Origin: Candidatus Sulfidibacterium hydrothermale
GTDB lineage: Bacteria > Bacteroidota > Bacteroidia > Bacteroidales > F082
Length of the DNA: 64,000 bases
Direction: 5' to 3'
Assembly: GCF_020149915.1 (NCBI RefSeq)
Contig: NZ_CP083760.1
Span: forward strand, 1,302,001 to 1,366,000
Shown: one piece after another, positions 42,165 through 60,395 of the stretch
Position numbering within the stretch: the first letter of the stretch is position 1
Layout of the letters: each line of letters starts with the position of its first letter
Program-made: the position numbers and the translations under genes
Notes under the pieces: generated by a model
Database searches by the model: none
What the model was told of the DNA's origin: nothing
Seen by the model: the letters and a program-made list of their open reading frames with translations, nothing else

Positions 42165-44567
42165 TTATTCCTTGATGATTTTAAATGATGATTTCTGATT
42201 AGCGAACAGAACTTCCCCGAAATAGATGCCGCTCGGAAACGGTAAGCTGATTTTTACTTCCGGGGGGTACAGCCCGGAAAAGGTTTTGATTAACCGTCCC
42301 TGCACATCTCTGATTTTTAATTGAAAAGGCCCCTGTTTTTTTTCGGTTTGCAGAACAAAATAATCGTGTGCCGGATTGGGATATATTTTCACACCGGCGG
42401 GCGTATGTGCCGGCCGGATGCCGGTAATATCCGTTGGGTAACAGGCTGAAGTAACCGTGTAGCCGTTCAGGGTGATTTGTACGGCATAATTTCCGGATGA
42501 GTCGGGGGTAAACGACTGGCTTGTGGCCCCGTTCACAGGATTGTACAGGTTGTTACAATCGCACCAGCGGTAATCGGCGCCGGACTGGTTGGCTGTCAGC
42601 GTGGAACCGGTTACGGTTACCGTGGTATCCACTGGAATTTTTTGTCTTACTTCCGTAGGATATCCCCGATAAACATCGTAAAATAATTCTCTGAAATCCA
42701 GATTGTTGAAAATGAAATAATCGCGCGACTGGTTTTGGAAACTGATCAGTTTGTTGTTGAGCTGATAGGCCGTGGCATCTTTCCCGCTGATGTACCGGTC
42801 CACCAGATTTCTGTATTGACTGTTGGCTGTTCCCTGGTAGTAACCGCCCAGCCGGTACTGGGTGCCTTCGGACGTGTATTGATAATCGGAACCAATGAGT
42901 TGTATCAGCCGGTTTTCCAGTTGCCGGGTGACTGTGTTGATGCTGTCGGCCAGTGCTTTCACCGTGTTGTTATCGGCGGTAATGCTTTTGTTCATCAGAC
43001 TTCTGAGCTGCCCGTTGATGTCCTGAACCGAATTGGATTTGAAAGAATAACTGTCGTGATGCAGCCGTTCGCCGGGCCAAAGATAAATATTGAGTTTCGG
43101 ATTTTTATAGAAAAACTGGGTTAAACCGGTTTTGTCGATGGTAACGGCATCGCCTGTCGTGCGAATGGAAAAAACGGCATTTTGCAGCGTGCCGTCCCAA
43201 CCGGCATTTATTTTCAGATGAAGTAATACAGGATGTCCTTTTTGTACGGTTTTAACAGTGCTTGCATCGCTGAAATTGCCGCCGCCGGCCGAGCCTTCCA
43301 ATACAAACTGCACGGTACTGGTTCCCTGCGAAGAAACATAAGCCAGTACGTCATAAACTCCGGGACCGTTGTTTTTTAATGCCAGTGTAACATCCTGCGA
43401 AAGGGTGAGGTGTCCGTCGGCAGTAGCCGGAAATTGAAGGAAATGGTTTTCGTTTTTCAGCTCTATCGTGTAATTTCCGCCGGTAACGGTCCATTTTTTC
43501 ATGCCGTCTTCAAATCCGGGATTACTCAGCATGTTCCACCAGACAGAAGGCCCTTCGGTCATGATTTTCTGAAAGCCGGGATAAAGCCATTCGCCGGTTT
43601 TTCCGTTGTGGTTTCTGTCCATTTCGGCATCGAAAAGAGAAGTGGCGCCGTCGAAAAACATCAGGTAAGCCGACGGGATGCCCCGGTCGATGAAACGGCG
43701 GGTAACCTGATAGGCAATGGGGCGGGCTACCCACATTTCGTTATCTGTATTTTTGGCATTCCAGGCGCCGCTCCAAACCACCTGTTTGGTGGAATCCATG
43801 TATTCCCAGGCCTGTTCTACCAACCGGATGTTGTCGCGGGCATCGGGTTTTAAAACGTGAAAATCCCACATGAAATACCGGCCGGCCCCTTTAGGAACCG
43901 GGTTGTAAGCCTGTGTCATAAAATATTTTGTTCCGGGGCCGTACGGATTGGACGAAGCGTCAGCCGGCGGAATTTTGAAGTAGATGATAATCCGGTCGGG
44001 ATTGGTTTTTCTGATTTCAGCCGTGATGGAATCGTAGTAGTCCATGATGCGGTGCGGGTCGCTGTTGTGTACGAGTGTCCAGGGTTCTACAAACAAATCG
44101 AAAATCAGCCGGTGGCTTTTGTTTTTAAAACGGTTGGCCACGTAACCCCACCAGGCAGCCATTTTGTGCAAATCGCCCGGATTGTCCTTTGTAAGTCCGT
44201 AAAAAGTCAGTACCACGCCGAGGTTTTTATTCAGCAAGTCGGTGATAATGGAATCGGTTTGATCCAGCAAGGCATCGTCGGCAGCGTCGTAAGGCGGACC
44301 GTCGGCAATGGCTTGCATCATGGGATTGTTGTCGCCCTGGTAGCGGATGCGGACACTCTGGTATCCGGCAGCGACCAGCGAATCGCCGTAAGCCGGCTTA
44401 TAAGGTGCCGAAAATCCGATGTTTACGTTGCCGGCCTGCGGTTCCATCAGGATACCTTTTCCGAGCATGGAAACTGCCTGTGCCGGCGAAAGCGGCGGGT
44501 CGGGGGGTTGGGCCGACAAAGCCAAAACAAACAAACTGATAAAAACGGTCAATGCTGATTTTTTCAT
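42165..44567 (-). CDS. GH5-like glycoside hydrolase with changed active site, CBM-like module and T9SS sorting domain
   Basis: The 800-residue protein begins with a signal peptide (MKKSALTVFISLFVLALSAQ). Residues 35-310 align by pattern to GH5: SVRIR (Arg73/75), RLIFDLFVEPW with Glu161 in the acid/base place but Val for the usual Asn, and WDFHV with His237. The nucleophile strand reads WSGAWN, with Ala268 where GH5 has Glu, and Tyr123 stands where a His is usual. Residues about 346-480 (NPGFEDGMKKW) look like a CBM4/9-type module, followed by a helical region, an Ig-like domain and a type A T9SS C-terminal domain (KIYPNPAHDYFVL). It is last in the PUL. Either a divergent hydrolase or a binding protein. 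Confidence 0.72.
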   Translation of the reverse strand: MKKSALTVFISLFVLALSAQPPDPPLSPAQAVSMLGKGILMEPQAGNVNIGFSAPYKPAYGDSLVAAGYQSVRIRYQGDNNPMMQAIADGPPYDAADDALLDQTDSIITDLLNKNLGVVLTFYGLTKDNPGDLHKMAAWWGYVANRFKNKSHRLIFDLFVEPWTLVHNSDPHRIMDYYDSITAEIRKTNPDRIIIYFKIPPADASSNPYGPGTKYFMTQAYNPVPKGAGRYFMWDFHVLKPDARDNIRLVEQAWEYMDSTKQVVWSGAWNAKNTDNEMWVARPIAYQVTRRFIDRGIPSAYLMFFDGATSLFDAEMDRNHNGKTGEWLYPGFQKIMTEGPSVWWNMLSNPGFEDGMKKWTVTGGNYTIELKNENHFLQFPATADGHLTLSQDVTLALKNNGPGVYDVLAYVSSQGTSTVQFVLEGSAGGGNFSDASTVKTVQKGHPVLLHLKINAGWDGTLQNAVFSIRTTGDAVTIDKTGLTQFFYKNPKLNIYLWPGERLHHDSYSFKSNSVQDINGQLRSLMNKSITADNNTVKALADSINTVTRQLENRLIQLIGSDYQYTSEGTQYRLGGYYQGTANSQYRNLVDRYISGKDATAYQLNNKLISFQNQSRDYFIFNNLDFRELFYDVYRGYPTEVRQKIPVDTTVTVTGSTLTANQSGADYRWCDCNNLYNPVNGATSQSFTPDSSGNYAVQITLNGYTVTSACYPTDITGIRPAHTPAGVKIYPNPAHDYFVLQTEKKQGPFQLKIRDVQGRLIKTFSGLYPPEVKISLPFPSGIYFGEVLFANQKSSFKIIKE

Positions 44568-44611: not shown

Positions 44612-45709
44612 TTAGTGCACTTGGTTTATTGCGTTGTACAATGCTTCGGCAAACAACCGGGCCCCTTTCGGGGTGAAATGTACCACATCCTTACTGCCTT
44701 TGGGTTTCATGTTTTCAGGACCTGTCAGGCTTTTTCCGTCAATCAGAAAAAGATTTTTATATCCTTTTTTTTGAAATTTTCTGACCACATCTGCTTCAGC
44801 CTGCCGGATTTCATTCAGCGAAACCGTTCCGTGTTTGGGTTGTTGCCGGTAGGTAAAAGTCGGGGTGATGCAGTAGATTTTGGCTTTAGGATGGTCTTTT
44901 AAAAGAATAGATAAAAGTTTGGTATAGCGCGGGATAATTTGTTTTTTGGGTGTGTAACCTTTGTTCCAGTCGTTGTAGCCCCATAAAATGGTGATCACGT
45001 CCACTTTTTTACCGGCAAGTTCCAGCGCAAAAGGCCACGATATTTTTGAACCGCCCACGGCCAGGTTATACAATTGCCATCCTTCTTTTTGTGCCAGTAT
45101 CCAGGGCCAGGTTTGAAATCCGGCGGTTTGGCCGGTGCCCTGCGTAATGGAATTGCCGATGGCTACATACACCGGTTTGTCTTTCTGCGGTGCCGCGGCA
45201 AAATGACTTCCTTTATCCGTTTCTATTCCGTTGAAATTTACGCCGTAATAGGGCGGGAAGACAATTTCCCATACGGCTGTTTTCCCGTCAGGATTTTGGA
45301 AAGCAATACCGTTAAAAGCGGTGTCTTTTCGCGGAAGAACAGCAATCTGTTTATAAAGTTTTCCGTTCTTAAAAACACCAAAAACCGAATGCCGGTGGCT
45401 GGTTCCTTTGCGTGGCGAAAGCAGGATTTTGATGTTTTTGCTGTCGGAAACAAAAGAAAGCGTGACCCCCGACTGGGTAAAAGCATTTTTCGGATTGGCT
45501 TCGGTTTCGGGTATGTCGATAATTTTCTTTTCATGCCGGTTGATAATCATTTTGTTGTCCGTTTTTTTCAGGAAAAAAGCACCTTCAATCCGGATGCGGT
45601 TGTCGTTTGGCTTAATAAACTGTTTGGCATTTTGTGCCTGAAGGGGAAGACATGAAAAAAGTATCACGGATAAAAAAATCAGACTTCCTGTTTGTTTTAA
45701 AAGCTTCAT
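44612..45709 (-). CDS. SGNH/GDSL-type carbohydrate esterase
   Basis: The 365-residue protein has a signal sequence (cleavage near LQAQ; Cys20 is a weak lipobox alternative), an N-terminal beta-rich domain (about residues 30-170) and an SGNH domain. Block I is AIGNSITQG with Ser187, block III is WGYNDW with Asn246 and block V is DVVHFTPKG with Asp341 and His344. The two-domain plan is like CE2/acetylxylan esterases, so removal of acetyl groups from the PUL glycan is the likely role. It lies three bases after a sulfatase gene. Confidence 0.85.
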   Translation of the reverse strand: MKLLKQTGSLIFLSVILFSCLPLQAQNAKQFIKPNDNRIRIEGAFFLKKTDNKMIINRHEKKIIDIPETEANPKNAFTQSGVTLSFVSDSKNIKILLSPRKGTSHRHSVFGVFKNGKLYKQIAVLPRKDTAFNGIAFQNPDGKTAVWEIVFPPYYGVNFNGIETDKGSHFAAAPQKDKPVYVAIGNSITQGTGQTAGFQTWPWILAQKEGWQLYNLAVGGSKISWPFALELAGKKVDVITILWGYNDWNKGYTPKKQIIPRYTKLLSILLKDHPKAKIYCITPTFTYRQQPKHGTVSLNEIRQAEADVVRKFQKKGYKNLFLIDGKSLTGPENMKPKGSKDVVHFTPKGARLFAEALYNAINQVH

Positions 45710-45712
45710 TTC

Positions 45713-47407
45713 TTAAAATTTCATTTTTCCTATTTCACTGTCTTTGTATCCGATACGCGTTCCCATGGTGTAAAGGTATTTCCCTTTCGGAATCACCAAC
45801 GGTTGGTCATACACCTTCCATCCGGCATTTAGCCCGGGTTTAAAATCTTTATCGCTGATGAGATAAGCAATGGAAGCCCCTTTGGTATCGCAGGAAAGAG
45901 TAACCATGCGGCCTTTTTTGGTGATGTGCACACGGTCGGTAACCGGCTGGATGCCTTTGGGCCACATTTGCAAAAACATCTCTTTTTCGGGGATGGAACC
46001 CATGTCGCCCACGCGGGCCTGCCAGTTGTCCATCGCTTTGCGCAATTCGGCGATTTTGGCTTTGTATTTCGGATCGTCAATCAGGTTGTGCAGTGTTTCC
46101 GGGTCGTTTTTGATGTCGTACAGTTCTTCGGGTACTTTTTGCAGCCGAAACCAGTAAAGCTGGTCTTTGTTCAGCCTGCCGAGTTGCATCAGCCGCAGCA
46201 TGTCGCGCATCATGTCCATTTGTTTGCGGTATTTGATGTCTTTGTAGCACGGCAGGTTGGTGTGGTAGTTTCTGACGTACATGTAACGGTGGTCGCGTAC
46301 CACACGGTTGCGGTCGGTGATGCCGTCGTAACGGTCGCCGGAAGCAAAGATGTATTTCCGTTCGGTTTTGGCACGCTGCGGGCCGAGAAAAGCCTGTCCC
46401 TGCATGTACGCCGGAATGGGAACGCCGGCAATGGATAATACGGTGGGGGCCAAATCGACAAACGAAATAAGTTCGCTCACATGGCCGTTTTTGATTTTAC
46501 CGGGGCCGGGGCCGTATTTTTTCATGTATCGGGGCGGAATGCGTACGATGAACGGCACATGCAGTCCCGATTCGTAGTTCACGCGTTTGCCGCGGGGCAA
46601 CGGGCCGCCGTGGTCGCTGAAAAAGAAGATGATGGTTTTGTCGTACAACCCGGCTTTTTTCAATGCCCGGATTTTTTCACCGATTTGTTTGTCCAGCACT
46701 TCGATGTTGGAATAATTCCGTGCAACATCCTGCCGTACAATGGAATCGTCCGGGAAATAGGACGGCAGCGGAACACTGTCCGGCGATACGGTTTGCGGTT
46801 TGTTTTTCCGTTTCCATATCTGCGATTCGTGTGTTACAAAATGGTTATAAACCGAAAAAAACGGCATGCCTTTGGGGGCGTGTTTCCATTCGGCTTTTTT
46901 GTTGTTTTCATCCCAGGCGGTAACCGGTGCGGCAAACTGATAGTCGGTTTTGTCGTTGTTGGTGCAGTAGTATCCCGCTTTGCGCAGATATTCAGGAAAA
47001 CATTTTACGTAAGGCGGGATAACTGCCGAGTAAAGCGGTACTTTGTTGCCATTGATGTCCACGGCAATACTCGGACCCGAATAATCGCGTTTCCCCCACG
47101 AATGCACATCGTGCGCCGTGCGCATGTGCATGGTGCCGATGGAAGTGGGATACATGCCGGTAATGATGTCGGAACGGCTGGGGGCACAAACCGGTACCAC
47201 GGCAAAAACATTGTCGAAAACAATTCCTTCTTTGGCCAGTTGATCCAGGTTGGGTGTGTGTGCGGTAGAATCACCGTACATGTCGAGATACGGACTGATG
47301 TCTTCGCAGGTAAGCCACAGAATGTTGGGGCGGTCGTCGTTTTTTTTCTGGGCCACCACCGGAAAGACCGTGAAAAATACAAAAACGAGCAGTAATAACT
47401 TTTTCAT
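45713..47407 (-). CDS. Sulfatase, family S1 (heparan N-sulfatase-like)
   Basis: The 564-residue periplasmic sulfatase has a signal peptide (MKKLLLLVFVFFTVFPVVAQ). The modification motif is VCAPSRSDIITG with Cys74, which is converted to formylglycine by an anSME enzyme not found in this window. Metal ligands come from CEDISPY (Glu35-Asp36) and FFSDHGG. The CEDISPY/VCAPSRSD pattern is close to sulfamidase-like S1_8 members, but substrate class cannot be fixed by eye. It follows the next sulfatase gene after a long hairpin. Confidence 0.92.
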   Translation of the reverse strand: MKKLLLLVFVFFTVFPVVAQKKNDDRPNILWLTCEDISPYLDMYGDSTAHTPNLDQLAKEGIVFDNVFAVVPVCAPSRSDIITGMYPTSIGTMHMRTAHDVHSWGKRDYSGPSIAVDINGNKVPLYSAVIPPYVKCFPEYLRKAGYYCTNNDKTDYQFAAPVTAWDENNKKAEWKHAPKGMPFFSVYNHFVTHESQIWKRKNKPQTVSPDSVPLPSYFPDDSIVRQDVARNYSNIEVLDKQIGEKIRALKKAGLYDKTIIFFFSDHGGPLPRGKRVNYESGLHVPFIVRIPPRYMKKYGPGPGKIKNGHVSELISFVDLAPTVLSIAGVPIPAYMQGQAFLGPQRAKTERKYIFASGDRYDGITDRNRVVRDHRYMYVRNYHTNLPCYKDIKYRKQMDMMRDMLRLMQLGRLNKDQLYWFRLQKVPEELYDIKNDPETLHNLIDDPKYKAKIAELRKAMDNWQARVGDMGSIPEKEMFLQMWPKGIQPVTDRVHITKKGRMVTLSCDTKGASIAYLISDKDFKPGLNAGWKVYDQPLVIPKGKYLYTMGTRIGYKDSEIGKMKF

Positions 47408-47494: not shown

Positions 47495-48958
47495 TTAACG
47501 TATGAGCTTTTTCTTTGTCTTTTCGTAAGCATGAATCTGTGTTTTCCAATCGTTTAGTTCTTTATCCAGTTTTTTCGCCAGCTCTTTTTTCCCTTGTACA
47601 AGGTTGTTGGTTTCGCCCGGGTCTTTTTTCAGATTGTACAGTTCCAGCCGGTGTTGCGGATAGTAATCAATGAGTTTGTAGTTCCCCACACGGATGGCCG
47701 AGCAGGTGTGGTCGCCGGTTTGGTTGGGACGTCCTTTGGGCGAATGCCAGAACAGGGTGCGGTCAACGGTTTTCCCGGTTTGCATAAAAGTTTTCATGCT
47801 TATCCCGTCGATGTGCTGGCGGGGTTTCAGCGGTAACCCGCACAAGTCGAGCAGGGTAGGGTAAATGTCGGTATTGACGGTTACCTGTTTGCAATGATGT
47901 TTCGGGGTTAGTACCGGGTCGTAAATAATAAACGGCACCTGAATACCGCCTTCGTAAACATGTCCTTTTCCGGCACGCAGCGGCAGGTTGGCCGTAGCCA
48001 GCTCGCGGTGACTGTTGATTCCGCGGTTCGACAGTCCGCCGTGGTCGGATGTGAAAACAATGATGGTGTTGTTTAAAATGCCTTCCTGTTTTAAAACGTT
48101 GATGATTTTACCGAGGCTTTTGTCCACGCTTTCGATCATGGCAGCATACACGTAGTTGTCCTGATGGGTTTTGGTTTGTCCGTCTTTCATTAAATAATCA
48201 GGACCGGAAAAATGTAGTGTGGACACTTTGGCTTTGTATTTTTGAATCAAAGCTTTGGGCGCCTGAAACGGAGTGTGGACACCGTAATGGCAAAGCATAG
48301 CAAAAAACGGCCGGTTTTTGTTTTCTTTGATAAACCGGATGGTTTCCTGTGTCAGCCGGTCGGTCAGATATTCACCGGGTTTCCCGTCATCGAGTCCGAT
48401 AATGGGACGATGGTGTTTTTCGCCTTTTTTGTTTTTATCCTGGCTGACGTTGTAGGGATAAAAATAGGAAATGGGCGCGCCGGCACTGCAACCGCCTTTG
48501 TTGATATCGTACCCTTTGTATTGTGGCCAGTCGGTTTCTTTTTTGCCGAGATGCCATTTCCCGGCAAAAAAGGTGTGATAGCCGTTGTCTTTAAAAGCCT
48601 GCCCGATGGATGTATCGTTGGCAGCCAGGGCATCGCCGGGACCGGGAATCTGGTTGCGTGCCGGGAATTTTCCGGTCTGAATGGCATAGCGCGAAGGCGT
48701 GCAGCGCGGATGGCTGGCGTAGGCATGGTCAAATTCGATGCCTTCTTTGGCCAGCTTGTCGATATTCGGTGTTTCGTACAGTTTTGAACCGTGCGACGAC
48801 AGGTCATAATATCCCAAATCGTCCACAACAAAAATCAGTACGTTCTTTTTTTGTGGTTTTTGGATGCCGGTTGCCTTGACAAAGAAAAGCATCAGCAGAA
48901 TAATAGCAGTGGCAGTGGCAAAAGTTTTCCATACCAATTGAAAATCGGCCTTTTTCAT
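47495..48958 (-). CDS. Sulfatase, family S1 (arylsulfatase A-like)
   Basis: The 487-residue protein has an N-terminal hydrophobic segment (about residues 12-28) that can serve as signal peptide or anchor. The formylglycine motif is HPRCTPSRYAIQTG with Cys86. Metal-site residues include VVDDLGYYD (Asp46, Asp47) and FTSDHGG; the mid-protein AGKWHLGKK segment holds the usual Lys and His. The overall pattern is close to N-acetylgalactosamine-6-sulfatase-like bacterial S1 enzymes acting on polysaccharide fragments. It begins nine bases after the sulfatase-GH10 fusion gene. Confidence 0.92.
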   Translation of the reverse strand: MKKADFQLVWKTFATATAIILLMLFFVKATGIQKPQKKNVLIFVVDDLGYYDLSSHGSKLYETPNIDKLAKEGIEFDHAYASHPRCTPSRYAIQTGKFPARNQIPGPGDALAANDTSIGQAFKDNGYHTFFAGKWHLGKKETDWPQYKGYDINKGGCSAGAPISYFYPYNVSQDKNKKGEKHHRPIIGLDDGKPGEYLTDRLTQETIRFIKENKNRPFFAMLCHYGVHTPFQAPKALIQKYKAKVSTLHFSGPDYLMKDGQTKTHQDNYVYAAMIESVDKSLGKIINVLKQEGILNNTIIVFTSDHGGLSNRGINSHRELATANLPLRAGKGHVYEGGIQVPFIIYDPVLTPKHHCKQVTVNTDIYPTLLDLCGLPLKPRQHIDGISMKTFMQTGKTVDRTLFWHSPKGRPNQTGDHTCSAIRVGNYKLIDYYPQHRLELYNLKKDPGETNNLVQGKKELAKKLDKELNDWKTQIHAYEKTKKKLIR

Positions 48959-48967
48959 CGTAGTTAC

Positions 48968-51900
48968 TTACTTTAGTTTTCTCAGATTTATGTTATCCAC
49001 ATAGGAAAAACCTTTGTCGGTATTTCCCCATTTTTGAATAATGATTTTTACATTCGGATGGCTTCCGGTGGTAAACGGAACGCGGATTTCGGTGTATTGG
49101 GTTGCCCCTGTTCGTTTGGCAACGGGCTTGGAATTGCCGTCAACTTCAACTTTTACGGTTATCTTATCACCGGTATCATTTTTTACATAAGCCGTGAGTA
49201 CGTAACGGGTATTGGGTTTCAGTCCTTTTACCTGTTGTTTGATTCCCGATTTGGGGCCCATGGCAATGCAGGTTTTTCCGGCAAAGGCATTGTCGGTATC
49301 TGTTTCGGTATCCCCCCATTTCAGCCAGTTTTTCATCCCGTTCTCAAATCCGCCGTTTTTGATAAATCCGCCATGAAAAGTGGTAGCAGATGTTTCCGGT
49401 ACCGGAAATTCAAGTTTCAGATCATCAGGATGTTCCAGTATTTTCTGAAAAGCGTAATAAGCCGGTTTGGCCCGCAGCTCGTGGTCGAACATATAGCGGT
49501 GTCCGTTGTTATATTTGCCGTTGCCGTCCTTTAAACCCCATGTGTTGCAGGCTACAACCCCCGAATGGCGTTTGCTGAGCAGCACTTTTAAAATGTTGCC
49601 GTAAGCCATGGCTTGAATTTTTGCCGCTTTGTCGTTGTAAGGACCGGCTATTTTGTCGTCCAGCTCGGTAACATGAAATTCCATGCCGTGAGCGTGGGTC
49701 CAGTCAATAAGTTTGCCAAGATATTTCAAGGCTTTGGGGTCAAGTCCCACGTTATTATCCGGTTTCAGGTGAGCCTGCCAGCCGATGGCATCCACCCGGT
49801 ATCCTTTTTTCTTCAGGTATAGCACCGTGGATTTTACTTTGTTCCATACCACCGGATCCATGGTCAGGTGCTGGTTATACACCAGCTTGATGTTCGGATC
49901 GGCATATTTTGTGGCAATTTCAAAAGCTTTTACAATGTAAATCGGGATGCCGTCTTTGTTCAGCCCGATTTTTAACCAGGGATTTTCCCACTGGTGGATT
50001 CCCGGTTTAGGGCCGAACCATTTTCCGCCTTTGTCCACGGTTTCGTTAACCACATCCATCCATTTAACCGTTTTGCTGCCCTGAAAATGCTTGCATTCGG
50101 CTGTCATGTATTCGGTCATGTTTTGTAACAGTTCGGCCGGTGTACGGTTGTCTTCTTTGGCCCAAGGTGAGCATTGCGGGCTTACCGGCCCGTGCAGGCG
50201 TACGACGATGTCGTTCTTTTGGGCAAAGCGGATTACCTTGTCGATTTTTTGCCAGTTCCATTTTCCGGGTTCGGGATGAACAGCATGTTGTTTTACAGCA
50301 TTAGCCGGCGTGGTGTACGAAAATTGTTCAGCCAGCAGGCGACTTTTTAGGGTGCCGATGCTTTGATAATCGATGGTGGCCCCGATATACACTGTGCCGG
50401 GTTTGAAATTTTTTGCTACCAGCTGACGCAAAGCCGGGCCTTTGGGCTTGCCCGGAATTTCGCCGGCGGTAACCGTTAAAGTGCCGGCATTTGCGGCAGC
50501 CTGTCCTTTCAGTACCTGGCTGTCCAAAAAGCGGTGAAGCGTATCCTGCAGCTTTTTCAGTACATCGGCATATTTTTTGTTTTTTGCCAGATTACGGGTT
50601 TCCAGCGGATCTTCCACATAATCATACAGTTCGGTAGCGATGGGGCGGATGCCTTTTCGCGGCTGTGTGCTTTTGTACGATTCGTACCATTCGGTGTAAC
50701 GATAGCGCCGGGTGCGGATGGAATAACCCATGCCGCCTTTGCCGCCGCGGGTGGGCCATTGCGAGATAGCAAAATCGCGTTTCGGCTTTTCCCCGTTCAT
50801 CAAAGGAATCAAACTGAATCCCTGAACGGCTTTATCGGGTTTTACCCCGGCCAGCCGGCAAACGGTAGGGAAAATGTCCAGCGATTCTACCGGAATGGCT
50901 GTTTTTCCGGGTTTTATCTCCGGCGAATAGATGATCAGCGGCAGCCGGGTAGCCTGTTCAAAATTGGTATGTTTGGTCCATAGGTTGTGGTCGCCAAGAT
51001 GCCAGCCGTGGTCGCCCCACAGTACGATGATGGTATTTTTATCCAGACCGGTTTCTTTCAGTTTGTCCATGAGTTTTCCTATCTGGGCATCCACATACGA
51101 AGCACAGGCGTAGTATCCGTGAATCAGATGGCGTTGTTTGGCGGTTTCTAACAGTCCGTCTTTGGGATACACCGGCGGGATGTCGGTGTATGAACGTAAT
51201 TCGGGGCTGTGATGATAGGCCAGTGCCGGTCCGCCTTTCGAATGCTTTTGAAATTTGGCCAGCGGTACCTTTTTTTCGTCATACATATTCCAGTATTTGG
51301 CGGGGGCCACAAAGGGCAGGTGTGGTTTTTTGAATCCCACCATCAGCATAAACGGCTTTTTTTCTTTGGCAAACTGATCCAGCTTGTTCAGCGCTTCCCG
51401 GGCAATTACCCCGTCGAGATAAATGTCGTCGGGACCGTCCACTTTTTCGGTGGAAGGTTTGTAGTTTTTTCTGACGAAGTTGGCTAACTTTTTTCCTTTC
51501 AGTCCTTTGGCTTTGCCTAAGTCTTCGTAAAACCGGATCTTGGCTTCGTGTTCGGGCGAACGGTAATAACCCAGAAGCGGCCGCGAAACCGTCCAGGGTA
51601 AATGAGCCGGCTGTACGTACGGAATGGTCCACGAGCGGCTGTCGTGACCGTGATCGACGCTGCGCGGGTCGAAAACTTTACCAATGCCGTAAGTGATGTA
51701 TCCGTTTTCTTTAAAGAGCTGCGGCAATGTGATCACGTTGGGATTTTTGGCTCTGATTTTGGTGTGCAGATTCCATACTTTGGTACGGTCGGGACGCAGC
51801 CCGGTGAGCATGCTGGCACGCGACGGGGCACAGACGGCCTGTTCGGTATAGGCCTGTTGAAAAAGAAATCCTTCTTTTGCCAGCCGGTCGATGTTCGGGG

Positions 51901-52054
51901 TTTTGGCAAATTTGTCGCCATAAGCGCCAATGGTGGGCTTCAGGTCATCCACAGCAATAAAAAGTACGTTCAGTTTTTGCGGCTTGTTTTGCGAGAATAG
52001 TGAAAAAGGCAGCATCAGTGCCCATAAAGAGATGTAAATCAGTTTCCGTTTCAT
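48968..52054 (-). CDS. Fusion protein: S1 sulfatase + GH10 xylanase + carbohydrate-binding module
   Basis: A single uninterrupted frame of 1028 residues with a signal peptide (MKRKLIYISLWALMLPFSLF). Residues 25-515 are a sulfatase of the iduronate-2-sulfatase type: metal residues DDLKP (Asp36-Asp37), formylglycine motif VCAPSRASMLTG with Cys75, and LWGDHGWHLGDH (Asp348, His349). A linker rich in Ala/Gly/Pro follows (515-545). Residues 545-880 are GH10, with acid/base Glu671 in WMDVVNETV and nucleophile Glu797 in FHVTELDD, both intact. Residues 895-1028 are a CBM4/9/22-like jelly roll (NGGFENGMKNW). It would remove sulfate and cut the xylan backbone in one molecule. It is central to the PUL. 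Confidence 0.88.
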   Translation of the reverse strand: MKRKLIYISLWALMLPFSLFSQNKPQKLNVLFIAVDDLKPTIGAYGDKFAKTPNIDRLAKEGFLFQQAYTEQAVCAPSRASMLTGLRPDRTKVWNLHTKIRAKNPNVITLPQLFKENGYITYGIGKVFDPRSVDHGHDSRSWTIPYVQPAHLPWTVSRPLLGYYRSPEHEAKIRFYEDLGKAKGLKGKKLANFVRKNYKPSTEKVDGPDDIYLDGVIAREALNKLDQFAKEKKPFMLMVGFKKPHLPFVAPAKYWNMYDEKKVPLAKFQKHSKGGPALAYHHSPELRSYTDIPPVYPKDGLLETAKQRHLIHGYYACASYVDAQIGKLMDKLKETGLDKNTIIVLWGDHGWHLGDHNLWTKHTNFEQATRLPLIIYSPEIKPGKTAIPVESLDIFPTVCRLAGVKPDKAVQGFSLIPLMNGEKPKRDFAISQWPTRGGKGGMGYSIRTRRYRYTEWYESYKSTQPRKGIRPIATELYDYVEDPLETRNLAKNKKYADVLKKLQDTLHRFLDSQVLKGQAAANAGTLTVTAGEIPGKPKGPALRQLVAKNFKPGTVYIGATIDYQSIGTLKSRLLAEQFSYTTPANAVKQHAVHPEPGKWNWQKIDKVIRFAQKNDIVVRLHGPVSPQCSPWAKEDNRTPAELLQNMTEYMTAECKHFQGSKTVKWMDVVNETVDKGGKWFGPKPGIHQWENPWLKIGLNKDGIPIYIVKAFEIATKYADPNIKLVYNQHLTMDPVVWNKVKSTVLYLKKKGYRVDAIGWQAHLKPDNNVGLDPKALKYLGKLIDWTHAHGMEFHVTELDDKIAGPYNDKAAKIQAMAYGNILKVLLSKRHSGVVACNTWGLKDGNGKYNNGHRYMFDHELRAKPAYYAFQKILEHPDDLKLEFPVPETSATTFHGGFIKNGGFENGMKNWLKWGDTETDTDNAFAGKTCIAMGPKSGIKQQVKGLKPNTRYVLTAYVKNDTGDKITVKVEVDGNSKPVAKRTGATQYTEIRVPFTTGSHPNVKIIIQKWGNTDKGFSYVDNINLRKLK

Positions 52055-52156: not shown

Positions 52157-53104
52157 TTATTCCTTGTTTTTCTGTTTTTTTATTGGGTAAATGGCACTTT
52201 TGGGGATTTTTATCTGTACGTGGCCGGATAAAAATCCGTGGTTTACCAAAAAGTTGTCTGCCTGTTGTAATGTTTCGTAGTAATAACGATTTTTTGTGCC
52301 GGGGGGATAGCCCATTTTTTTGGCATAACCAAAATTGAAAAAAGTGTGTTCGCCGCCCGGATAAATTTTTACGGTGCAGTCGTTTCCTGCTTTTTTCATT
52401 TTTTCTTCAAACCGCAATGCCGTGGGTTTGGGCAATACTTTGTCTTTGTCGCCCACCATGACCAACACCGGCGGAAGTCCCGGCCGGATGTTGTCAATGG
52501 GCGAAAATGCCTGCCACGACAGGCGGTAAGGTTTTATTTCGTTCACAATTCGTTGGTGTCCGTATCCGTTTTTGCTGACATCGAGTACCGGGTTGAATAG
52601 CAACAAAGCATCGGGACGGAAATCTGCCGGCGGAATATTTTGGTTAATCGTAGTATCCAGTGCTGTCATGATGGCGAGATGTCCGCCTGCCGAGCCGCCG
52701 CCGGCTACAATTTTATCCGGATTAATATGGAAAGCCGCGGCATGTTTTCGTACCCATGCCATGGCACTTTCGGCATCTCGCACCGCTTCCACAATGGTGG
52801 TGTGGTTTTTATTGCGTAACCGGTATTCAGGACAAAATACGGTCATTCCCCTGTTGGCGAAATAACGGGCATGCCGGTACATGTAAGCCGGCTTTCCGTT
52901 GTTCCATCCCCCGCCGTGAAACAATACCAGTGCCGATTTTTCCGGATTCTGATGTTTCGGTAAAAAGATGAATATTTTTAAAGCCACCGGTCCGGCTTTT
53001 TTATAAACGATGGCCGTATCGGGGGCAAAAGCCGGTTTCTGGGCCTGCAACCCGGCAGCCCACATCAGAAAAACGAAAAACAGAAATTTGTTCCGGATAT
53101 TCAT
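52157..53104 (-). CDS. Alpha/beta hydrolase, acetylesterase (BD-FAE/Aes-like)
   Basis: The ATG at 53104 gives 315 residues with a signal peptide (MNIRNKFLFFVFLMWAAG, cleavage near LQAQ). Motifs are the oxyanion HGGGW (63-67), nucleophile elbow GGSAGGH with Ser138, and a late catalytic His in GGEHTFF. This is the pattern of the hormone-sensitive-lipase/BD-FAE group, which removes acetyl or feruloyl groups from xylan in other organisms. The position after a sulfatase and before the GH10 fusion supports a deacylating role, by inference. Confidence 0.86.
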   Translation of the reverse strand: MNIRNKFLFFVFLMWAAGLQAQKPAFAPDTAIVYKKAGPVALKIFIFLPKHQNPEKSALVLFHGGGWNNGKPAYMYRHARYFANRGMTVFCPEYRLRNKNHTTIVEAVRDAESAMAWVRKHAAAFHINPDKIVAGGGSAGGHLAIMTALDTTINQNIPPADFRPDALLLFNPVLDVSKNGYGHQRIVNEIKPYRLSWQAFSPIDNIRPGLPPVLVMVGDKDKVLPKPTALRFEEKMKKAGNDCTVKIYPGGEHTFFNFGYAKKMGYPPGTKNRYYYETLQQADNFLVNHGFLSGHVQIKIPKSAIYPIKKQKNKE

Positions 53105-53130
53105 TGTCTTTTTTTGTTGCATCAGAAAAT

Positions 53131-53167
53131 CAAAAAAGTAACAGGGCGACTATTCCCTGTTACTTTT
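53131..53167 (-). terminator. Intrinsic terminator inside the PUL, after a sulfatase gene
   Basis: A perfect 13-bp stem AAAAGTAACAGGG/CCCTGTTACTTTT (53134-53146 with 53155-53167), 8-base loop, with six or more T residues following on the minus strand. It begins 17 bases after the sulfatase stop at 53185 and should separate transcripts or cause partial termination. Confidence 0.75.
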
Positions 53168-53184: not shown

Positions 53185-54795
53185 CTAATTCAGTTTTCCA
53201 AAATCTTTATCGGTAATTTCCCTGAACTGCTGCAGGCTTCCGGTGTCTTTCACCTGCTTCATCAGTGCTTTCAGTTGCTTTTTCATCTTCGCGATAATGT
53301 CAGCATATTGTGGATCGTTGATCGCGTTATGCAGTTCGTCGGGATCTTTTTTCAGATCATAAAATTCCCATACGTCAATGTCGTAATAGAAATGGGCGAT
53401 TTTATACCGTTTGGTGCGCATGCCGTAATGCGGTTCCACATGGTGCCACCACGGGAATTCGTAGTAATGATAATATACTGCTTTACGCCACGGAACGTTC
53501 TTTTTTCCTTCGATGATATCTTTGAAACTGCGTCCCTGAACCCCTGCGTTGGCGGGTGGCTTGATGCCTGCAAAATCGAGGAAGGTGGGGGCGAAGTCCA
53601 CATTTGAAATCAGCGTGCTGTCCACCTGTCCGGCTTTCAGTTTGGCGGGATAACGCATCAGGAATGGCATACGGAACGACGGTTCGTAGATAAAACGTTT
53701 GTCGAAAAAGCCGTGGTCGCCGAGATAAAATCCCTGGTCGGAAGTATAAACCACAATGGTGTTTTTAGCCAGTCCGTTTTTGTCCAGAAAGTTAAGTACG
53801 TCACCCACTTTGTCGTCCACCGATTTTACGCAGGCCAGGTAATCTTTGATAAACCGCTGGTATTTCCATTTACGGGCTTCCTGTTCGGTTTTACATCCGG
53901 GGGGCATCCAGTCTTGACCGGGTTTGTTGCCGTACGAATACCATTCGTGCAGTGCTTTGCCTTTCAGTCCTTTGGGTGGTTTGAGCTTCATGTCTTTATG
54001 ATTCAGGAAGTCCATGGTCATCCAGGTGTTGCCTGCTGTTTTTTCGCGGGTTTTGTAGTTGTCGTTAAATGTGGGCGGATAAGGCATTTCCACATTCGGA
54101 TACATGTTTTGGTATTTTTTGTCCGGGAACCAGTTACGGTGCGGTGCTTTAAAGTGCAATAAAAGCAGGAACGGTTTTTTGCCGTCTTTTACACGGTTGA
54201 GCCAGGCCAGAGCCGAGTCGGCTGTGATGTTGGTGGCGTAACCTTTGATGACCACTTTTTTACCGTTGTAGTTGTACAGCGGGTTCCAGTAGGTTCCCTG
54301 CTGGCCGGGATTATCATGATACATGAAAAAATCAAAGCCACGGGGAACGGTGCCGAGATGCCATTTTCCGAACATGGCAGTGGTATAACCGTGTTTCTGC
54401 ATTTCCTGCGGATAGGTCCACTGGTTGGGATCAAAATGGCCGCCGTGTTCGTTTTTGTAATAATGATTCTCGTTGCTGTATTTTCCGGTGATGATGGTAG
54501 CCCGGCTGGGACCGCAAAGCGAGTTGGCACAATACACCCGGTCGAAACGGATTCCTTCTTTGGCAATCCGGTCGATGTTGGGGGTCGGAAAATATTTGGC
54601 GTAACGCTTGTTGTAAGCGCTGATTGCCTGTGTGGTGTGGTCGTCGGCCATGATGTAAATGATGTTGGGCCGGCTGTCTTTTGCCTGAGCTTTTTTTGCC
54701 GTTGTGGAATGACACGAAGTCATCAGTACCGAAAAGGAAAACAAGGCGGCAGAAGCCAACAGGAAAGAAAAAATAATTTGTTTTGTTCTTTTCAT
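53185..54795 (-). CDS. Sulfatase, family S1 (GlcNAc-6-sulfatase-like), probable lipoprotein
   Basis: The 536-residue protein has a signal ending in LMTSC (Cys28), a plausible lipobox. The formylglycine motif is NSLCGPSRATIITG with Cys94; the Gly after Cys is allowed in C-x-P-S-R. Metal residues are MADDH (Asp51-Asp52) and YTSDQGFYLGDHG. The pattern of SLCGPSR and KWHLG is like S1_11 members that cleave 6-O-sulfate from sugars. It directly follows the GH3 gene (17 bases). Confidence 0.92.
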   Translation of the reverse strand: MKRTKQIIFSFLLASAALFSFSVLMTSCHSTTAKKAQAKDSRPNIIYIMADDHTTQAISAYNKRYAKYFPTPNIDRIAKEGIRFDRVYCANSLCGPSRATIITGKYSNENHYYKNEHGGHFDPNQWTYPQEMQKHGYTTAMFGKWHLGTVPRGFDFFMYHDNPGQQGTYWNPLYNYNGKKVVIKGYATNITADSALAWLNRVKDGKKPFLLLLHFKAPHRNWFPDKKYQNMYPNVEMPYPPTFNDNYKTREKTAGNTWMTMDFLNHKDMKLKPPKGLKGKALHEWYSYGNKPGQDWMPPGCKTEQEARKWKYQRFIKDYLACVKSVDDKVGDVLNFLDKNGLAKNTIVVYTSDQGFYLGDHGFFDKRFIYEPSFRMPFLMRYPAKLKAGQVDSTLISNVDFAPTFLDFAGIKPPANAGVQGRSFKDIIEGKKNVPWRKAVYYHYYEFPWWHHVEPHYGMRTKRYKIAHFYYDIDVWEFYDLKKDPDELHNAINDPQYADIIAKMKKQLKALMKQVKDTGSLQQFREITDKDFGKLN

Positions 54796-54812: not shown

Positions 54813-57125
54813 TTATTTGATTACCAATACTTTGCCTTTTAAAAGGTCTTTGTTTCGCGATGAAGAACCCACCATGATGGTAAATGTTCCGGGTTCCACC
54901 ACGTATTTTGACTGTGCATTGTAATAAGCCAGTGCAGCAACCGGAAGATGAAATGTTACCGTGCGGGTTTCACCTTTTTTCAACAGTACCCGTTGATAGG
55001 CTTTCAGCTCTTTTACCGGCCGGGTGGCAGTAGAATAATCATCGCGGATGTAAAGCTGGACGATTTCCACGCCGTCGCGGTTTCCGGTATTGGTCACTTT
55101 TACCGATGCGGTAATGGTGTCGTTCAGGTGCACCTGTTTGGGAAGTTGTAAACCGGCGTATTTGTAGGTAGTATAGCTGATGCCGTAGCCAAAATGCCAC
55201 AACGGACTGCTCGGAATATCCACATATTTATGCAGATAAGCCGACGGCAGATGGTTGTAAATCATGTGAACTTGTCCTACGCTGTAAGGAATGGTGATGG
55301 TTAGTTTTCCGGAAGGATTAACGGTTCCTTTTACCACTTCGGCAATGGCCTGTCCGCCAAAAGCACCCGGTTCCCAGGCTTCGATAATGGCCGGGATGTT
55401 TTTCTTTATCCACGGCTCGGCCAGCGGACGTCCGTTGACGAAAACGACTACCACATTTTTGTTTTTAGCATAAATTTCTTTGATCAGTTTCAACTGATTT
55501 CCCATCAGGTTAAGCGTTCCGCGGTCCACATTTTCGCCACAGTTTTTTTCTTTGTCGTCGTAGCGCAGTGAGTTGGAACCCACCACTACAATTACGGCAT
55601 CGTAACCGGCGGCTTTGGAAACCGGTTTTTTCAGCAGTTCGTCGTTAGGATGAAGAAGACTCTCGCCGCTGTTGATAAAGTCAACCTGTGCACCGGAAAA
55701 GATTTCTTTAAACCCTTCGTAAACCGTAGTTACATGGTCGTCAGGCTGGCGGTAAGCCCAGTCGCCGAGAATGCGCTGGTTGTTGGCATTCGGACCGGTT
55801 ACCAGGATTTTTTTAGCCCCTTTCAGTGGTAGCAGTCCGTTGTTTTTCAGTAAGATGATGTCTTCGCGGGCAGCACGTAAAGCCAGCTTTTGGTGTGCCG
55901 GGGTGAAAAGTGCTTTTTCGGCTTTCTTTTCGTTGACAAAAGGCGAATCGAACAGACCGAGTTTAAATTTGGCATAGAGAATTTTCCGGGCAGCATTATC
56001 GATGTATTTTTCGTCTAATTTTCCGGTTTCAACCGATTTCTCGACCGATTTCAGAAAACGGGGACCATGCATGTGCATATCCATACCGGCTTCGATGGAC
56101 TGCCGGTAGGCTGCGTCGTAACTTGGTGCAGCATGATGCAGGGTATAAATCCGTTCCATGTCCATCCAGTCGGAAACCACAAAGCCCTGAAAACCCCATT
56201 CGTTTCTGAGTACGTCGGTCAGCAGGAATTTGTTTTCGTGACAGGGTGTTCCCGAAATTTCATTATGGGCTGCCATGATGGTGTAAACGTGTGCTTCTTC
56301 CACCTGGGCTTTATACGGCGGCAGCCACACATTGCGCAGGCGCCGTTCGGAAGCGTCCAGCGGAGCGGCATTCAGCCCGTTGAAAGGTTCACCGCCGCCG
56401 GTCATGTGTTTGGCACAGGCAAGGATGTTGTTTTTCCCCCAGTTTCCCTGATAACCTTCGGTAAAATCTACACCGAGACGGGTTACCAGAAACGGGTCTT
56501 CGCCAAAAGTTTCGCCGGTGCGTCCCCAGCGCGGGTCGCGGGCAATTTCCACATTGGGCGAAAATGTCCAGTGCATACCGGTAGCCCGTACTTCTGCTGC
56601 GGTAGCTTTGGCAATTTGGTACAACAGGCTGTCGTCCCACGAGCTGGACAGTGAGAGCTGTGTGGGATAAACCGTTGCCCCGTAAATCAGAGCATGGCCG
56701 TGGATGGCGTCAATACCCAAAAGCAGCGGAATTTTCAGCCGCGACTGCATCGCCAGCCGTTGTAATTCGTTGGCTTCGCGGGCATCTTTTACATGCAAAA
56801 ATGAGCCGATCTTTCCTTCCCGCGTCAGTTGTTTCAGGTCGTTGATACTCAGATGCGGATACATGCCGTACTGGTCATCCCCTTTCAGGTTTTTTCCTTT
56901 CAATTTTTTGATGGACTCACGCACGTGTTCCAGTCCGACGTACTGACACATCTGCCCGATTTTTTCCTGCAGCGTCATCCGTTTCATCAAATCGTCCACC
57001 CGCTGGTTTACCGGCAGGTTTGGATTCAGATAGGCCGGCGCTTTTTCTGTTTGTGCCCAAACAGAAACCGAAAGAAAAGAAAATACAACGGCCATTAAAA
57101 GACCTATATTATTTTGAAATTTCAT
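54813..57125 (-). CDS. Glycoside hydrolase family 3 (beta-glucosidase/beta-xylosidase, BglX-like)
   Basis: The 770-residue protein has a signal peptide (MKFQNNIGLLMAVVFSFLSVSVWAQ) and the full GH3 plan: a TIM-barrel domain (about residues 40-370), an alpha/beta sandwich with the acid/base region and a C-terminal fibronectin III-like domain (about 670-770). Substrate-pocket and nucleophile motifs are LLGIDAIHGHA, FSPNVEIARDPRWGRTGETFGEDP, KHM and GFVVSDWMD with Asp319. GH3 of this type removes terminal beta-linked glucose or xylose in the periplasm. In the context of GH10 a beta-xylosidase role is likely but not proven. Confidence 0.93.
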   Translation of the reverse strand: MKFQNNIGLLMAVVFSFLSVSVWAQTEKAPAYLNPNLPVNQRVDDLMKRMTLQEKIGQMCQYVGLEHVRESIKKLKGKNLKGDDQYGMYPHLSINDLKQLTREGKIGSFLHVKDAREANELQRLAMQSRLKIPLLLGIDAIHGHALIYGATVYPTQLSLSSSWDDSLLYQIAKATAAEVRATGMHWTFSPNVEIARDPRWGRTGETFGEDPFLVTRLGVDFTEGYQGNWGKNNILACAKHMTGGGEPFNGLNAAPLDASERRLRNVWLPPYKAQVEEAHVYTIMAAHNEISGTPCHENKFLLTDVLRNEWGFQGFVVSDWMDMERIYTLHHAAPSYDAAYRQSIEAGMDMHMHGPRFLKSVEKSVETGKLDEKYIDNAARKILYAKFKLGLFDSPFVNEKKAEKALFTPAHQKLALRAAREDIILLKNNGLLPLKGAKKILVTGPNANNQRILGDWAYRQPDDHVTTVYEGFKEIFSGAQVDFINSGESLLHPNDELLKKPVSKAAGYDAVIVVVGSNSLRYDDKEKNCGENVDRGTLNLMGNQLKLIKEIYAKNKNVVVVFVNGRPLAEPWIKKNIPAIIEAWEPGAFGGQAIAEVVKGTVNPSGKLTITIPYSVGQVHMIYNHLPSAYLHKYVDIPSSPLWHFGYGISYTTYKYAGLQLPKQVHLNDTITASVKVTNTGNRDGVEIVQLYIRDDYSTATRPVKELKAYQRVLLKKGETRTVTFHLPVAALAYYNAQSKYVVEPGTFTIMVGSSSRNKDLLKGKVLVIK

Positions 57126-57286: not shown

Positions 57287-58837
57287 TTATTCTTCAATTA
57301 CACCAAAGTCTTCGGTATATTTAAAAGTCAGGTTGTCCAGCATCCATACCGATTTGGTTTTGGTTGCTGAAGCACTGTTGTCGTAGTGCCATTTCAGATA
57401 GATTGTTGACTGGGAAAGATCGATGTTTTCCATCAGAGGTGCATCCGTAGTAATGTATACCCCGGAACCAGATGTTGCCCAGTTGGGATCATCAGGAGCC
57501 ATTAAGTCGTTCCAGGTGATCTGATCGTACGAATATTGCAGGGTTCGCACGGTTTCGGCATAAACCGGATCCTGTTTGGCACCCCAGCCATTACGCTCAT
57601 CAAACACAATCTGAAGTTTGCTTCCGTTCCAATCGCTGGAGAGTTTAACGGCAGCGATAATCCAGGAATTGAATGTGGCATCTGCGCCATGATATCCTTT
57701 GGCATATCCACCGCCATCTGTAAATGATGTGGCAGAAGCTGCATCGGCACCATAAGTAATGGTTCCGTCTCCAAACTCAGCATCGGTGTAAGCGATTTCT
57801 CCCCATTTGGTCATGATGGTGATGGTGAACAAATCGGTAAAATCGAAGGAGATTCCTGATGAGTTGGTTACTCTAACGCCTACGACGTAGCTTCCTTCGG
57901 GCAGGTTCGCATTGGCAGCAATCGAAACTTTCCCATCGGTGTCAATAGACAGCGCATCTTTTACGGCCTGTGGAACGGTATCTGCCAGAATGATTTCCCA
58001 TCCGCCGTCAGAGTTCATTCCTGTCAGAACAGGCTTTTGAGAAGTATAAGGCGTTACCGGTGATACGGTTACTTTGTGTAAAGTATCGGTTCCGTTAGAT
58101 TGTGTGTACAAAATGGCCGGTGGAGCTCCTACATGAACAACAACGACATTTTTGAAAACTTTTACACCGAGATTTGTTTTTGCCAAAATAGTAAGCGTAT
58201 CGGTAGAATTAGGTGCAGCATCCACTGTTTTATTGATTTTTCCGTCAGAATCAATGGAAAAACCTTTTACAGCCGGGTCGATGGAGTAATCAACAGAAGT
58301 AATGGACTGGTCGGGTGATTCGTCTTTGTAAGTGACGGTAGCAATTACTCCTTGCTGCAACACATTGGCATAAACAACCGGATTATCCACTGAGATACTT
58401 ATGGGAACATCCAGAATACTTAATTTAAAAGCAGTATCTACTACGGCTATTCCGGTGGGATTCGACATGAATACCGAAACCGAAAAAGATCCCGGCGTGA
58501 TGGAGTTGGTTGTATTGTCATACGTGATAACTCCTGTTGTTTTGTCGATGCTAAATTTGCTATAAATGAAAGATCCTCCATCTGAAGCAATAATTGTGTC
58601 GATACCAAAAGTATAAACACCTTCTACCTGGTAGCTTGGCGTGTCTGATTTAATCAAAGCACTGACAGGATAGGATTGCAATGCGTCATATTTCAGATCA
58701 ACGTTGGCCGTTGTAACGGGCGTGGGATGATAGGGCGTGTAGTCCTCCGGAAATTTCTCGGTACACGAAGTAATGTATAACAATCCCGCAAGGAAAACCC
58801 AAATGATATTTTTATTTTTATAAGATAATCTTTTCAT
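57287..58837 (-). CDS. Putative surface glycan-binding lipoprotein (SusE/F position)
   Basis: The 516-residue protein follows SusD by five bases. It starts with a lipoprotein signal (lipobox YITSC, Cys25) and then has about three tandem beta-sandwich domains with recurring D-G-K-I/V-turn motifs (FSIDKTTGVITY, FSIDSDGKINK, LSIDTDGKVSI). The last 160 residues form a jelly-roll-like domain with FGDGTITYGADAAS and WYD/WML aromatic residues, typical of carbohydrate-binding or anchor domains. The family is not recognised beyond SusE-like position and features. It probably captures the glycan at the cell surface. Confidence 0.75.
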   Translation of the reverse strand: MKRLSYKNKNIIWVFLAGLLYITSCTEKFPEDYTPYHPTPVTTANVDLKYDALQSYPVSALIKSDTPSYQVEGVYTFGIDTIIASDGGSFIYSKFSIDKTTGVITYDNTTNSITPGSFSVSVFMSNPTGIAVVDTAFKLSILDVPISISVDNPVVYANVLQQGVIATVTYKDESPDQSITSVDYSIDPAVKGFSIDSDGKINKTVDAAPNSTDTLTILAKTNLGVKVFKNVVVVHVGAPPAILYTQSNGTDTLHKVTVSPVTPYTSQKPVLTGMNSDGGWEIILADTVPQAVKDALSIDTDGKVSIAANANLPEGSYVVGVRVTNSSGISFDFTDLFTITIMTKWGEIAYTDAEFGDGTITYGADAASATSFTDGGGYAKGYHGADATFNSWIIAAVKLSSDWNGSKLQIVFDERNGWGAKQDPVYAETVRTLQYSYDQITWNDLMAPDDPNWATSGSGVYITTDAPLMENIDLSQSTIYLKWHYDNSASATKTKSVWMLDNLTFKYTEDFGVIEE

Positions 58838-58842
58838 GGTCT

Positions 58843-60366
58843 TTAGTTTTTAATGTCTTCATTGGTGTTGATTTCACTGGCTGGTATGGGCAGGTGCATT
58901 ACACTTTCGTCATTGTCCAGCAGGGTTACATCAATTTTCGGGTTGAAAGTCGGTGCTGTATTGTGGGGGACAATAACATTTTCGCGGAAAAACTGATATC
59001 CGCGTCGGCGGTTATTAAACCAGTCGTGTCCTTCTCCCAGCAGCTCAAAACGGTATTCTTCCATAATGGCTTTACGGAAACCTTCCTGACCGTTGTAATA
59101 TTCAGCTTGCGGTTTTAATCCCACGCGATCGAGTACCTGGGTTACATAGCCCATTTGTTCACCGTTCTGCAGTTCGTTGGAAATTTCAGCCAGCATCAGC
59201 AGCAGATCGGCATAACGGTATACAATGAAGTTTTTGTTATTTACATTAGATGTGTTTTTCGGGTTCTTTTCCCAATATTTATAAAGGTAGGGAAATCCGT
59301 TTCCGAAATAGGTGCGGTTAGTTGAAGGATAAACTTTTACCAGTTTATTTCTTTTTACATTGAAATATTCGCTGATAAAAGTCTGGGCAATTCGTGGGTC
59401 ATTGGGATAAACAGAAGCCTGAAGATCATAAACTTCGGGATTGATTTTCAGACGTCCCCAGGTTTTTCCTTCGGTGGCACCGTAAGCTGTGAAGAGCCGC
59501 GGATAATTGCTTGCCTGTATTTCGTTGAACTGCAGTTCAAAGATCGATTCTACAGTGTTGTCGGTATTTTCGTCCCACAAAGTGGCATAATCGCTAACCA
59601 GCTGGTATTTTCCATACACTTCTTTGGCTTCGTTGTAGGCCAGTTGCCAGTAATTGGCGTTCGGATCTGGCTGAATGGATTGATCTGCGGTAGCCAGTGT
59701 CATATATACTTTGGCTTTTAGCATGCTGGCCGCTTCGGCAGCCGGATAACCTTTACGTTCTTTTCCTTTAGGATACATCAGCGTTTTGGCGATATCCGCA
59801 TCCTTAATGATTTGAGCGTAAATGTCTTTGGACGGCGATTTGGGCATGTTTATCGTGGATGGCAGCGTGGGAGCTAACCGCAACGGTACATCACCCCAAA
59901 GCCGTACCAGATTGAAATAGTTAAAAGCCCGCAGGAAATAAGCTTGTCCCAATACGTCATTCATTCCTTCCTGATCGGAATTTGCCGGATTGTCAATCGG
60001 TTTCATGGACGCAATAATGTCATTGGCACGTCCGATGGCCTGATAGCTTTGTTTCCAGACTCTTTCAAGGTGCGGAGTGCTGTTGAGCGGTTGCAAGGAG
60101 CATAAATGCACGTTGTCAGATTGTGTGTTTCTGTTTCCTTTTCCCGAGACAAAGAAACCGGAGTTTCCGTAAGTCAGATAAAGGAATTGGTGGGAGTAGT
60201 CTCCGTAGTTGACCATGGCGTTATATACACCGTCCAGCGAAGACCGGGCATTGTCAAGCGTGGCATAAGCACTGTCGTTTGACATAAATGGCGGTGTCTC
60301 CGTCAGGCTGCACGAAGCCACGAGGAAGGCCATTGTTATTGAAATGATGTATTTATAAATTTTCAT
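58843..60366 (-). CDS. SusD-like nutrient-binding lipoprotein
   Basis: The 507-residue protein (from the ATG at 60366; an ATG 18 bases earlier is an alternative) has a lipoprotein signal ending LVASC with Cys19. Typical SusD features are the helical TPR-like core, RAFNYFNLVRLWGDVPL and the C-terminal YRFELLGEGHDWFNNRRRG. With its SusC partner it forms the lid of an outer-membrane oligosaccharide importer. It lies 29 bases after SusC. Confidence 0.95.
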   Translation of the reverse strand: MKIYKYIISITMAFLVASCSLTETPPFMSNDSAYATLDNARSSLDGVYNAMVNYGDYSHQFLYLTYGNSGFFVSGKGNRNTQSDNVHLCSLQPLNSTPHLERVWKQSYQAIGRANDIIASMKPIDNPANSDQEGMNDVLGQAYFLRAFNYFNLVRLWGDVPLRLAPTLPSTINMPKSPSKDIYAQIIKDADIAKTLMYPKGKERKGYPAAEAASMLKAKVYMTLATADQSIQPDPNANYWQLAYNEAKEVYGKYQLVSDYATLWDENTDNTVESIFELQFNEIQASNYPRLFTAYGATEGKTWGRLKINPEVYDLQASVYPNDPRIAQTFISEYFNVKRNKLVKVYPSTNRTYFGNGFPYLYKYWEKNPKNTSNVNNKNFIVYRYADLLLMLAEISNELQNGEQMGYVTQVLDRVGLKPQAEYYNGQEGFRKAIMEEYRFELLGEGHDWFNNRRRGYQFFRENVIVPHNTAPTFNPKIDVTLLDNDESVMHLPIPASEINTNEDIKN

Positions 60367-60395
60367 GTCTTTATATTTTTTCATTCGATGATTAA

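Follow-up and report, generated by a model that had tools for sequence, protein, structure and literature searches.

The 64,000-nucleotide stretch analysed here (the window) contains a complete polysaccharide-utilization locus (PUL) of the Bacteroidota type, comprising a SusC/SusD pair, co-directional enzyme genes and a regulator, all on the minus strand. The regulator is of the HTCS type, and its 3' end (63821-64000) lies in the window, with the gene running on to 67735 outside it. It is followed by a SusC-like TonB-dependent transporter (60396-63533; TIGR04056, 861.7 bits), a SusD-like lipoprotein (58843-60384; PF07980 and PF14322) and a probable surface glycan-binding lipoprotein (57287-58837), which is assigned by position and lipobox and has no family match. 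The enzyme genes are a glucosidase/xylosidase-like GH3 (54813-57125) that scores below every NCBIfam cut-off, sulfatase A (53185-54795; S1_11-like, CGPSR), an alpha/beta hydrolase resembling BD-FAE and acetylxylan esterases (52157-53122), a sulfatase-GH10 fusion gene (48968-52054), sulfatase B (47495-48958; S1_16-like, CTPSR), sulfatase C (45713-47407; S1_8-like, CAPSR), a GDSL esterase (44612-45709) and a GH5-like glycosidase with a T9SS sorting tail (42165-44567), the last two identified by Pfam. Sulfatase subfamily labels used throughout (S1_7, S1_8, S1_11 and S1_16) are those of the nearest PDB entries and not SulfAtlas assignments. Pfam searches found no ulvan lyase, and no galactanase or fucanase family, among the genes of the window locus. 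Between the genes for sulfatase A and the esterase (53134-53167, minus strand), a 13-pair hairpin with a T-rich tail behind it may act as an attenuator or terminator within the operon. Adjoining the HTCS gene is a cytochrome c554/HEAT/TPR protein (L189:5907-8195; genome 1369907-1372195); a 37% identical homologue (L188:7308-9578) adjoins the related locus of G471, a distant genome.

The fusion gene encodes 1028 residues in one frame with zero internal stops, as the first-pass annotation had reported; the reading strand, minus, and the ATG start are added here. Residues 1-22 (51989-52054) form a Sec signal peptide devoid of a lipobox cysteine, recognised by eye and modelled as a helix at residues 2-21. 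The sulfatase domain and its C-terminal subdomain span residues 29-508 (50531-51970), with Pfam matches to Sulfatase (PF00884) at 29-404 (E 4e-52) and SGSH_C (PF16347) at 354-508. A linker (residues 513-545; 50420-50518) leads to the GH10 domain (residues 553-870; 49445-50398), for which the PF00331 match (E 1e-46) covers profile positions 9-309 of 311, and a profile match to PDB entry 1vbr has an E-value of 4e-40. The C-terminal jelly roll (residues 898-1028; 48971-49363) is a CBM4_9/CBM16-type module, matching PF02018 at 898-1009 (E 3e-12; 47.4 bits against a cut-off of 25.9) and the PDB entries 8xmz (E 2e-15) and 2zez (E 2e-6); a literature search for the 8XMZ paper returned nothing relevant. 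An AlphaFold2 model computed from a 21-sequence alignment has a mean pLDDT of 83, low values being confined to two linkers (below 50 at 517-525, and 885-909) and a few loops. The model does not fix with certainty how the domains are arranged relative to one another (pTM 0.60), and predicted strands at 916-1026 form a beta-sandwich consistent with a jelly roll. All catalytic residues named previously are exactly in place, and the sulfatase and GH10 domains are complete as had been proposed. They comprise D36, D37, D348 and H349 together with Cys75 (51830-51832), the formylglycine precursor in a CAPSR motif of the C-x-P-S-R type, which with R79 identify an S1 formylglycine-type sulfatase, and the two GH10 glutamates, Glu671 (50042-50044; DVVNET) as predicted acid/base and Glu797 (49664-49666; HVTELD) as predicted nucleophile.

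A sequencing or assembly error that joined two genes could explain such an architecture, and unfused S1_7 and GH10 genes are indeed adjacent in another genome (G444). A homologue scan, made in one pass over 84,980 species genomes, argues against this. The full three-domain protein occurs in an open frame in L016, L017 and L018, and as copies truncated by contig ends in L019 and L020, with 60-71% identity to the window protein in the best segment. The five are metagenome-assembled genomes of uncultured Bacteroidales or Marinilabiliaceae, except L016, which is labelled Chlorobiota. These independent assemblies share frame, linker and domain order, and the linker is read through in the same frame in all five. 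Across the linker, pN is 0.20-0.33 and pS 0.68-0.84, such that nonsynonymous changes are far rarer than synonymous ones (only pN and pS were used, dN/dS being meaningless where synonymous sites are saturated); this pattern indicates a linker frame that has been conserved under constraint. The missed stop or frameshift that had been feared at residues 515-545 is thus refuted, and we regard an artefactual join as practically negligible. In four marine uncultured Bacteroidetes genomes (L021-L024) a sulfatase and a GH10 domain likewise share one frame, separated by approximately 130 residues with a helical stretch and lacking the CBM. The idea that the fusion is unique to the window genome is therefore rejected, and the search for other sulfatase-GH10 architectures suggested at the outset found them in both groups.

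The sulfatase domain is closest, by both sequence and fold, to PDB entry 6HHM, titled family S1_7 (E 2e-82 in a sequence search of the PDB; best Foldseek PDB match of the model, with a TM-score of 0.89 on the target and 35% identity). This entry is Formosa agariphila P18_S1_7, reported as an endo-acting 2-sulfo-D-xylose sulfatase of ulvan degradation, in which P32_S1_8 is reported as an exo-acting 2-sulfo-xylose sulfatase (PMC9096561). P18_S1_7 differs from the window protein in that it is not fused to a glycosidase, is only some 35% identical and acts on ulvan, where xylose is next to rhamnose. Since cgsB, listed as a kappa-carrageenan 4-O-sulfatase (PMC9096561), also belongs to S1_7, we treat xylose-2-sulfatase specificity as a lead only, taken from P18_S1_7. 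The combination of S1_7-like and S1_8-like sulfatases with GH10, GH3 and esterases, and with no ulvan lyase, favours a xylan carrying xylose 2-sulfate as the substrate.

In phylogenetic analysis, the GH10 domains fused to sulfatases in the two lineages group with an unfused GH10 from L014; this subclade has full SH-aLRT support and is set off by a very long branch at its base (2.5 changes per column). The subclade shares its family, both catalytic glutamates and most -1 subsite residues with GH10 endo-beta-1,4-xylanases such as Thermotoga XynB (1vbr), retaining the Asn, Lys, His, Asn-Glu, Gln, His and Glu of that subsite as well as one Trp. In contrast to XynB, two conserved subsite tryptophans, one after the conserved His and one near the C-terminus, are absent from all nine subclade members aligned. 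NQ replaces the usual ND, and the subclade has an invariant WENPW motif of its own. We take the missing residues to be the equivalents of Cex W84 and W281. These GH10 tryptophans line the glycone subsites, and their loss has probably widened or remodelled the pocket. With the tryptophans gone from the whole subclade, which sets it apart from canonical GH10 xylanases, activity on plain beta-1,4-xylan is not to be assumed. The earlier description as a GH10 xylanase consequently holds for the family and both glutamates, and fails insofar as it implies an ordinary xylanase.

Among 395 genomes drawn from across the phylum, the GH10 subclade was found only in the window genome and in three distant ones, G217, G444 and G471. 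In the latter three it is unfused, and each of the four sulfatases of the window has a homologue in the surrounding locus. In G444 the two genes are neighbours on one strand with the S1_7 gene immediately upstream of GH10, which is the domain order of the fusion. This association of unfused genes, and the G444 gene order, are the strongest evidence that the sulfatase and GH10 activities serve one pathway. An exception is the L014 gene, from a genome (G021) of the window's own family, where no sulfatase was found in the locus. The subclade as defined here can serve as a sequence marker for such loci. The G444 GH10 has a T9SS tail, and the same locus contains a second S1_7 sulfatase fused to a CBM4_9 module, also with a T9SS tail (L187:13761-15986); in this carrier the equivalent reactions may take place on the cell surface. 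Marine flavobacterial-type loci (L021-L039) contain two additional divergent GH10 genes.

Proteins combining a sulfatase domain with GH10 have been described before. Krueger et al. 2019 count them among the conserved components of PULs that are predicted to target sulfated xylan in North Sea Formosa, Aurantivirga and Polaribacter (PMC6794258), and a sulfated beta-xylan PUL was predicted in Formosa by Kappelmann et al. 2018 (PMC6298971). The pattern given by the former (sulfatase-GH10, GH3 and two additional sulfatases, with SusC/D and the same predicted substrate) recurs in the window with a third additional sulfatase, the match being one of description and not of sequence. On that descriptive basis, the window protein differs in its Bacteroidales-type genome, C-terminal CBM4_9 and short linker; the last two also distinguish it from the L021-L024 versions. 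The architecture is therefore neither unique nor unreported, the present case being a Bacteroidales-type member with an added CBM. A comparable sulfatase-glycosidase fusion is Formosa agariphila P36, for which an S1_25 sulfatase and a GH78 were shown experimentally to act in turn on one glycan in ulvan degradation (PMC8511951). P36 nevertheless uses another sulfatase subfamily and another glycosidase, and attacks ulvan oligosaccharides from their non-reducing end. In the literature searched, we found no biochemical study of any sulfatase-GH10 protein and no measured activity for the GH10 subclade. Predictions from PULs place sulfated xylans among the major glycans of algal blooms, the enzymes concerned being deduced from gene content; the fusion would join two key steps, endo-2-O-desulfation of xylose and subsequent GH10 cleavage, in one protein.

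The fusion is real, intact, conserved and functionally coherent, and most likely represents an endo-desulfating xylanase of a sulfated-xylan locus. Judged from sequence, it is fairly probable that the product is an exported bifunctional enzyme that removes the 2-O-sulfate from xylose within sulfated xylan and cuts the chain so exposed. Following export, the CBM would hold the chain and Cys75 would be oxidised to formylglycine, enabling the S1_7 domain to desulfate internal xylose residues at O-2. Cleavage of the exposed beta-1,4-xyloside bond by the GH10 domain would follow, by retaining double displacement with Glu671 as acid/base and Glu797 as nucleophile. After import of the resulting oligosaccharides by SusCD, the remaining three sulfatases would complete their breakdown together with GH3 and the esterases. 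The ordinary signal peptide, lacking both lipobox and T9SS tail, indicates that the fusion probably acts in the periplasm. The locus substrate is probably a sulfated xylan-type glycan that is also acetylated. Desulfation and cleavage of a sulfated xylan by one polypeptide, as put forward in the first-pass annotation, thus remains the best-supported reading in view of 6HHM, the PUL context and the linkage of GH10 with sulfatases.

Some observations do not sit easily with a sulfated xylan: S1_7 is not monospecific, and the L014 locus has a subclade GH10 with no sulfatase. The missing tryptophans add that the GH10 substrate may not be beta-1,4-xylan at all, and the S1_11-like and S1_16-like sulfatases, together with an alpha-L-fucosidase encoded in the G217 locus, suggest a mixed glycan. 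The substrate could accordingly be a sulfated heteroglycan with xylose as one part, for example one containing fucose or galactose, in which GH10 cuts a linkage other than that of plain beta-1,4-xylan. The relatives of the S1_11-like and S1_16-like enzymes that act on galactose or hexosamine sulfates would fit this, as would the long stem and distinct WENPW motif of the subclade and the presence of a second GH10 gene at the G217 locus. It is nonetheless unlikely in our estimate, given that the -1 subsite core is kept and that galactanase and fucanase families are missing from the window locus. The two steps might also run in reverse, with a GH10 that tolerates or even requires sulfate releasing sulfated oligosaccharides for the sulfatase to trim, and a fusion that merely ensures co-export. 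Without the bulky tryptophans, the glycone side may be open enough to accommodate a sulfated xylose. Furthermore, related sulfatases are unfused in the same kind of locus, implying that the fusion is dispensable for function; any benefit that it confers is presumed. On the other hand, the endo mode reported for the closest sulfatase of known structure would suit desulfation that precedes or accompanies chain cleavage, and we consider the reverse order possible but doubtful. Desulfation of a sulfated xylan preceding cleavage remains the preferred sequence of events.

The activity of S1 sulfatases depends on formylglycine formation. The window genome (G000) is a single contig, 99.2% complete, with six PF00884 proteins, and profile and motif searches recovered no recognisable FGE or anSME in it. 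Two PF03781 proteins were rejected as FGE candidates, as they read as GldK and GldJ and do not have the FGE cysteine pair. A radical-SAM protein at genome position 13682 was rejected as an anSME (46 bits against a cut-off of 349), and no radical-SAM protein in this genome approaches that cut-off. Neither maturase was recognised in G021, G444 or G471, despite their Cys-type sulfatase genes, which leaves four of the five locus-carrying whole genomes examined without a recognisable maturase. The fifth, G217, has a canonical FGE, and in the marine flavobacterial-type loci (L021-L039) an FGE gene lies within approximately 10 kb of the S1_7 sulfatase. One could read the gap as meaning that the sulfatase half is inactive in its host, the protein being a GH10 enzyme with a passive or binding domain. 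This seems very improbable, since CxPSR is kept in all four PUL sulfatases, the domain is under strong constraint, and a canonical FGE does occur in G217 and in the marine flavobacterial-type loci. We tentatively raise the possibility, though not the expectation, that the locus sulfatases are matured by some means other than FGE or anSME. Otherwise, either the known maturases have diverged beyond the models used here or the assemblies missed them; to miss them four times is unlikely, though not all four genomes are closed. If real, the gap would suggest that Bacteroidota have a way of making formylglycine that has so far gone unrecognised.

The sulfatase tree bears on the origin of the fusion. 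The Bacteroidales fusions form one clade, which includes one unfused tandem copy; this S1_7 sulfatase without GH10 (L018:8211-9854) is directly upstream of the L018 fusion gene. The L021-L024 fusions instead group beside twelve unfused flavobacterial-type sulfatases, in all of which the helical extension lying between the L021-L024 domains is also present. As these neighbours are unfused yet already possess the extension, two separate fusions appear the simpler reading, with one fusion gain and later losses as the less favoured alternative. A further combination occurs in Pontiella sulfatireligans (L048:18854-21322), with GH10 preceding the sulfatase in a frame that runs past the end of the locus examined. 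Its GH10 is canonical-looking (331 bits) and falls outside the fused subclade, and in view of this and the reversed domain order we rejected it as an instance of the same fusion and count it as a separate combination.
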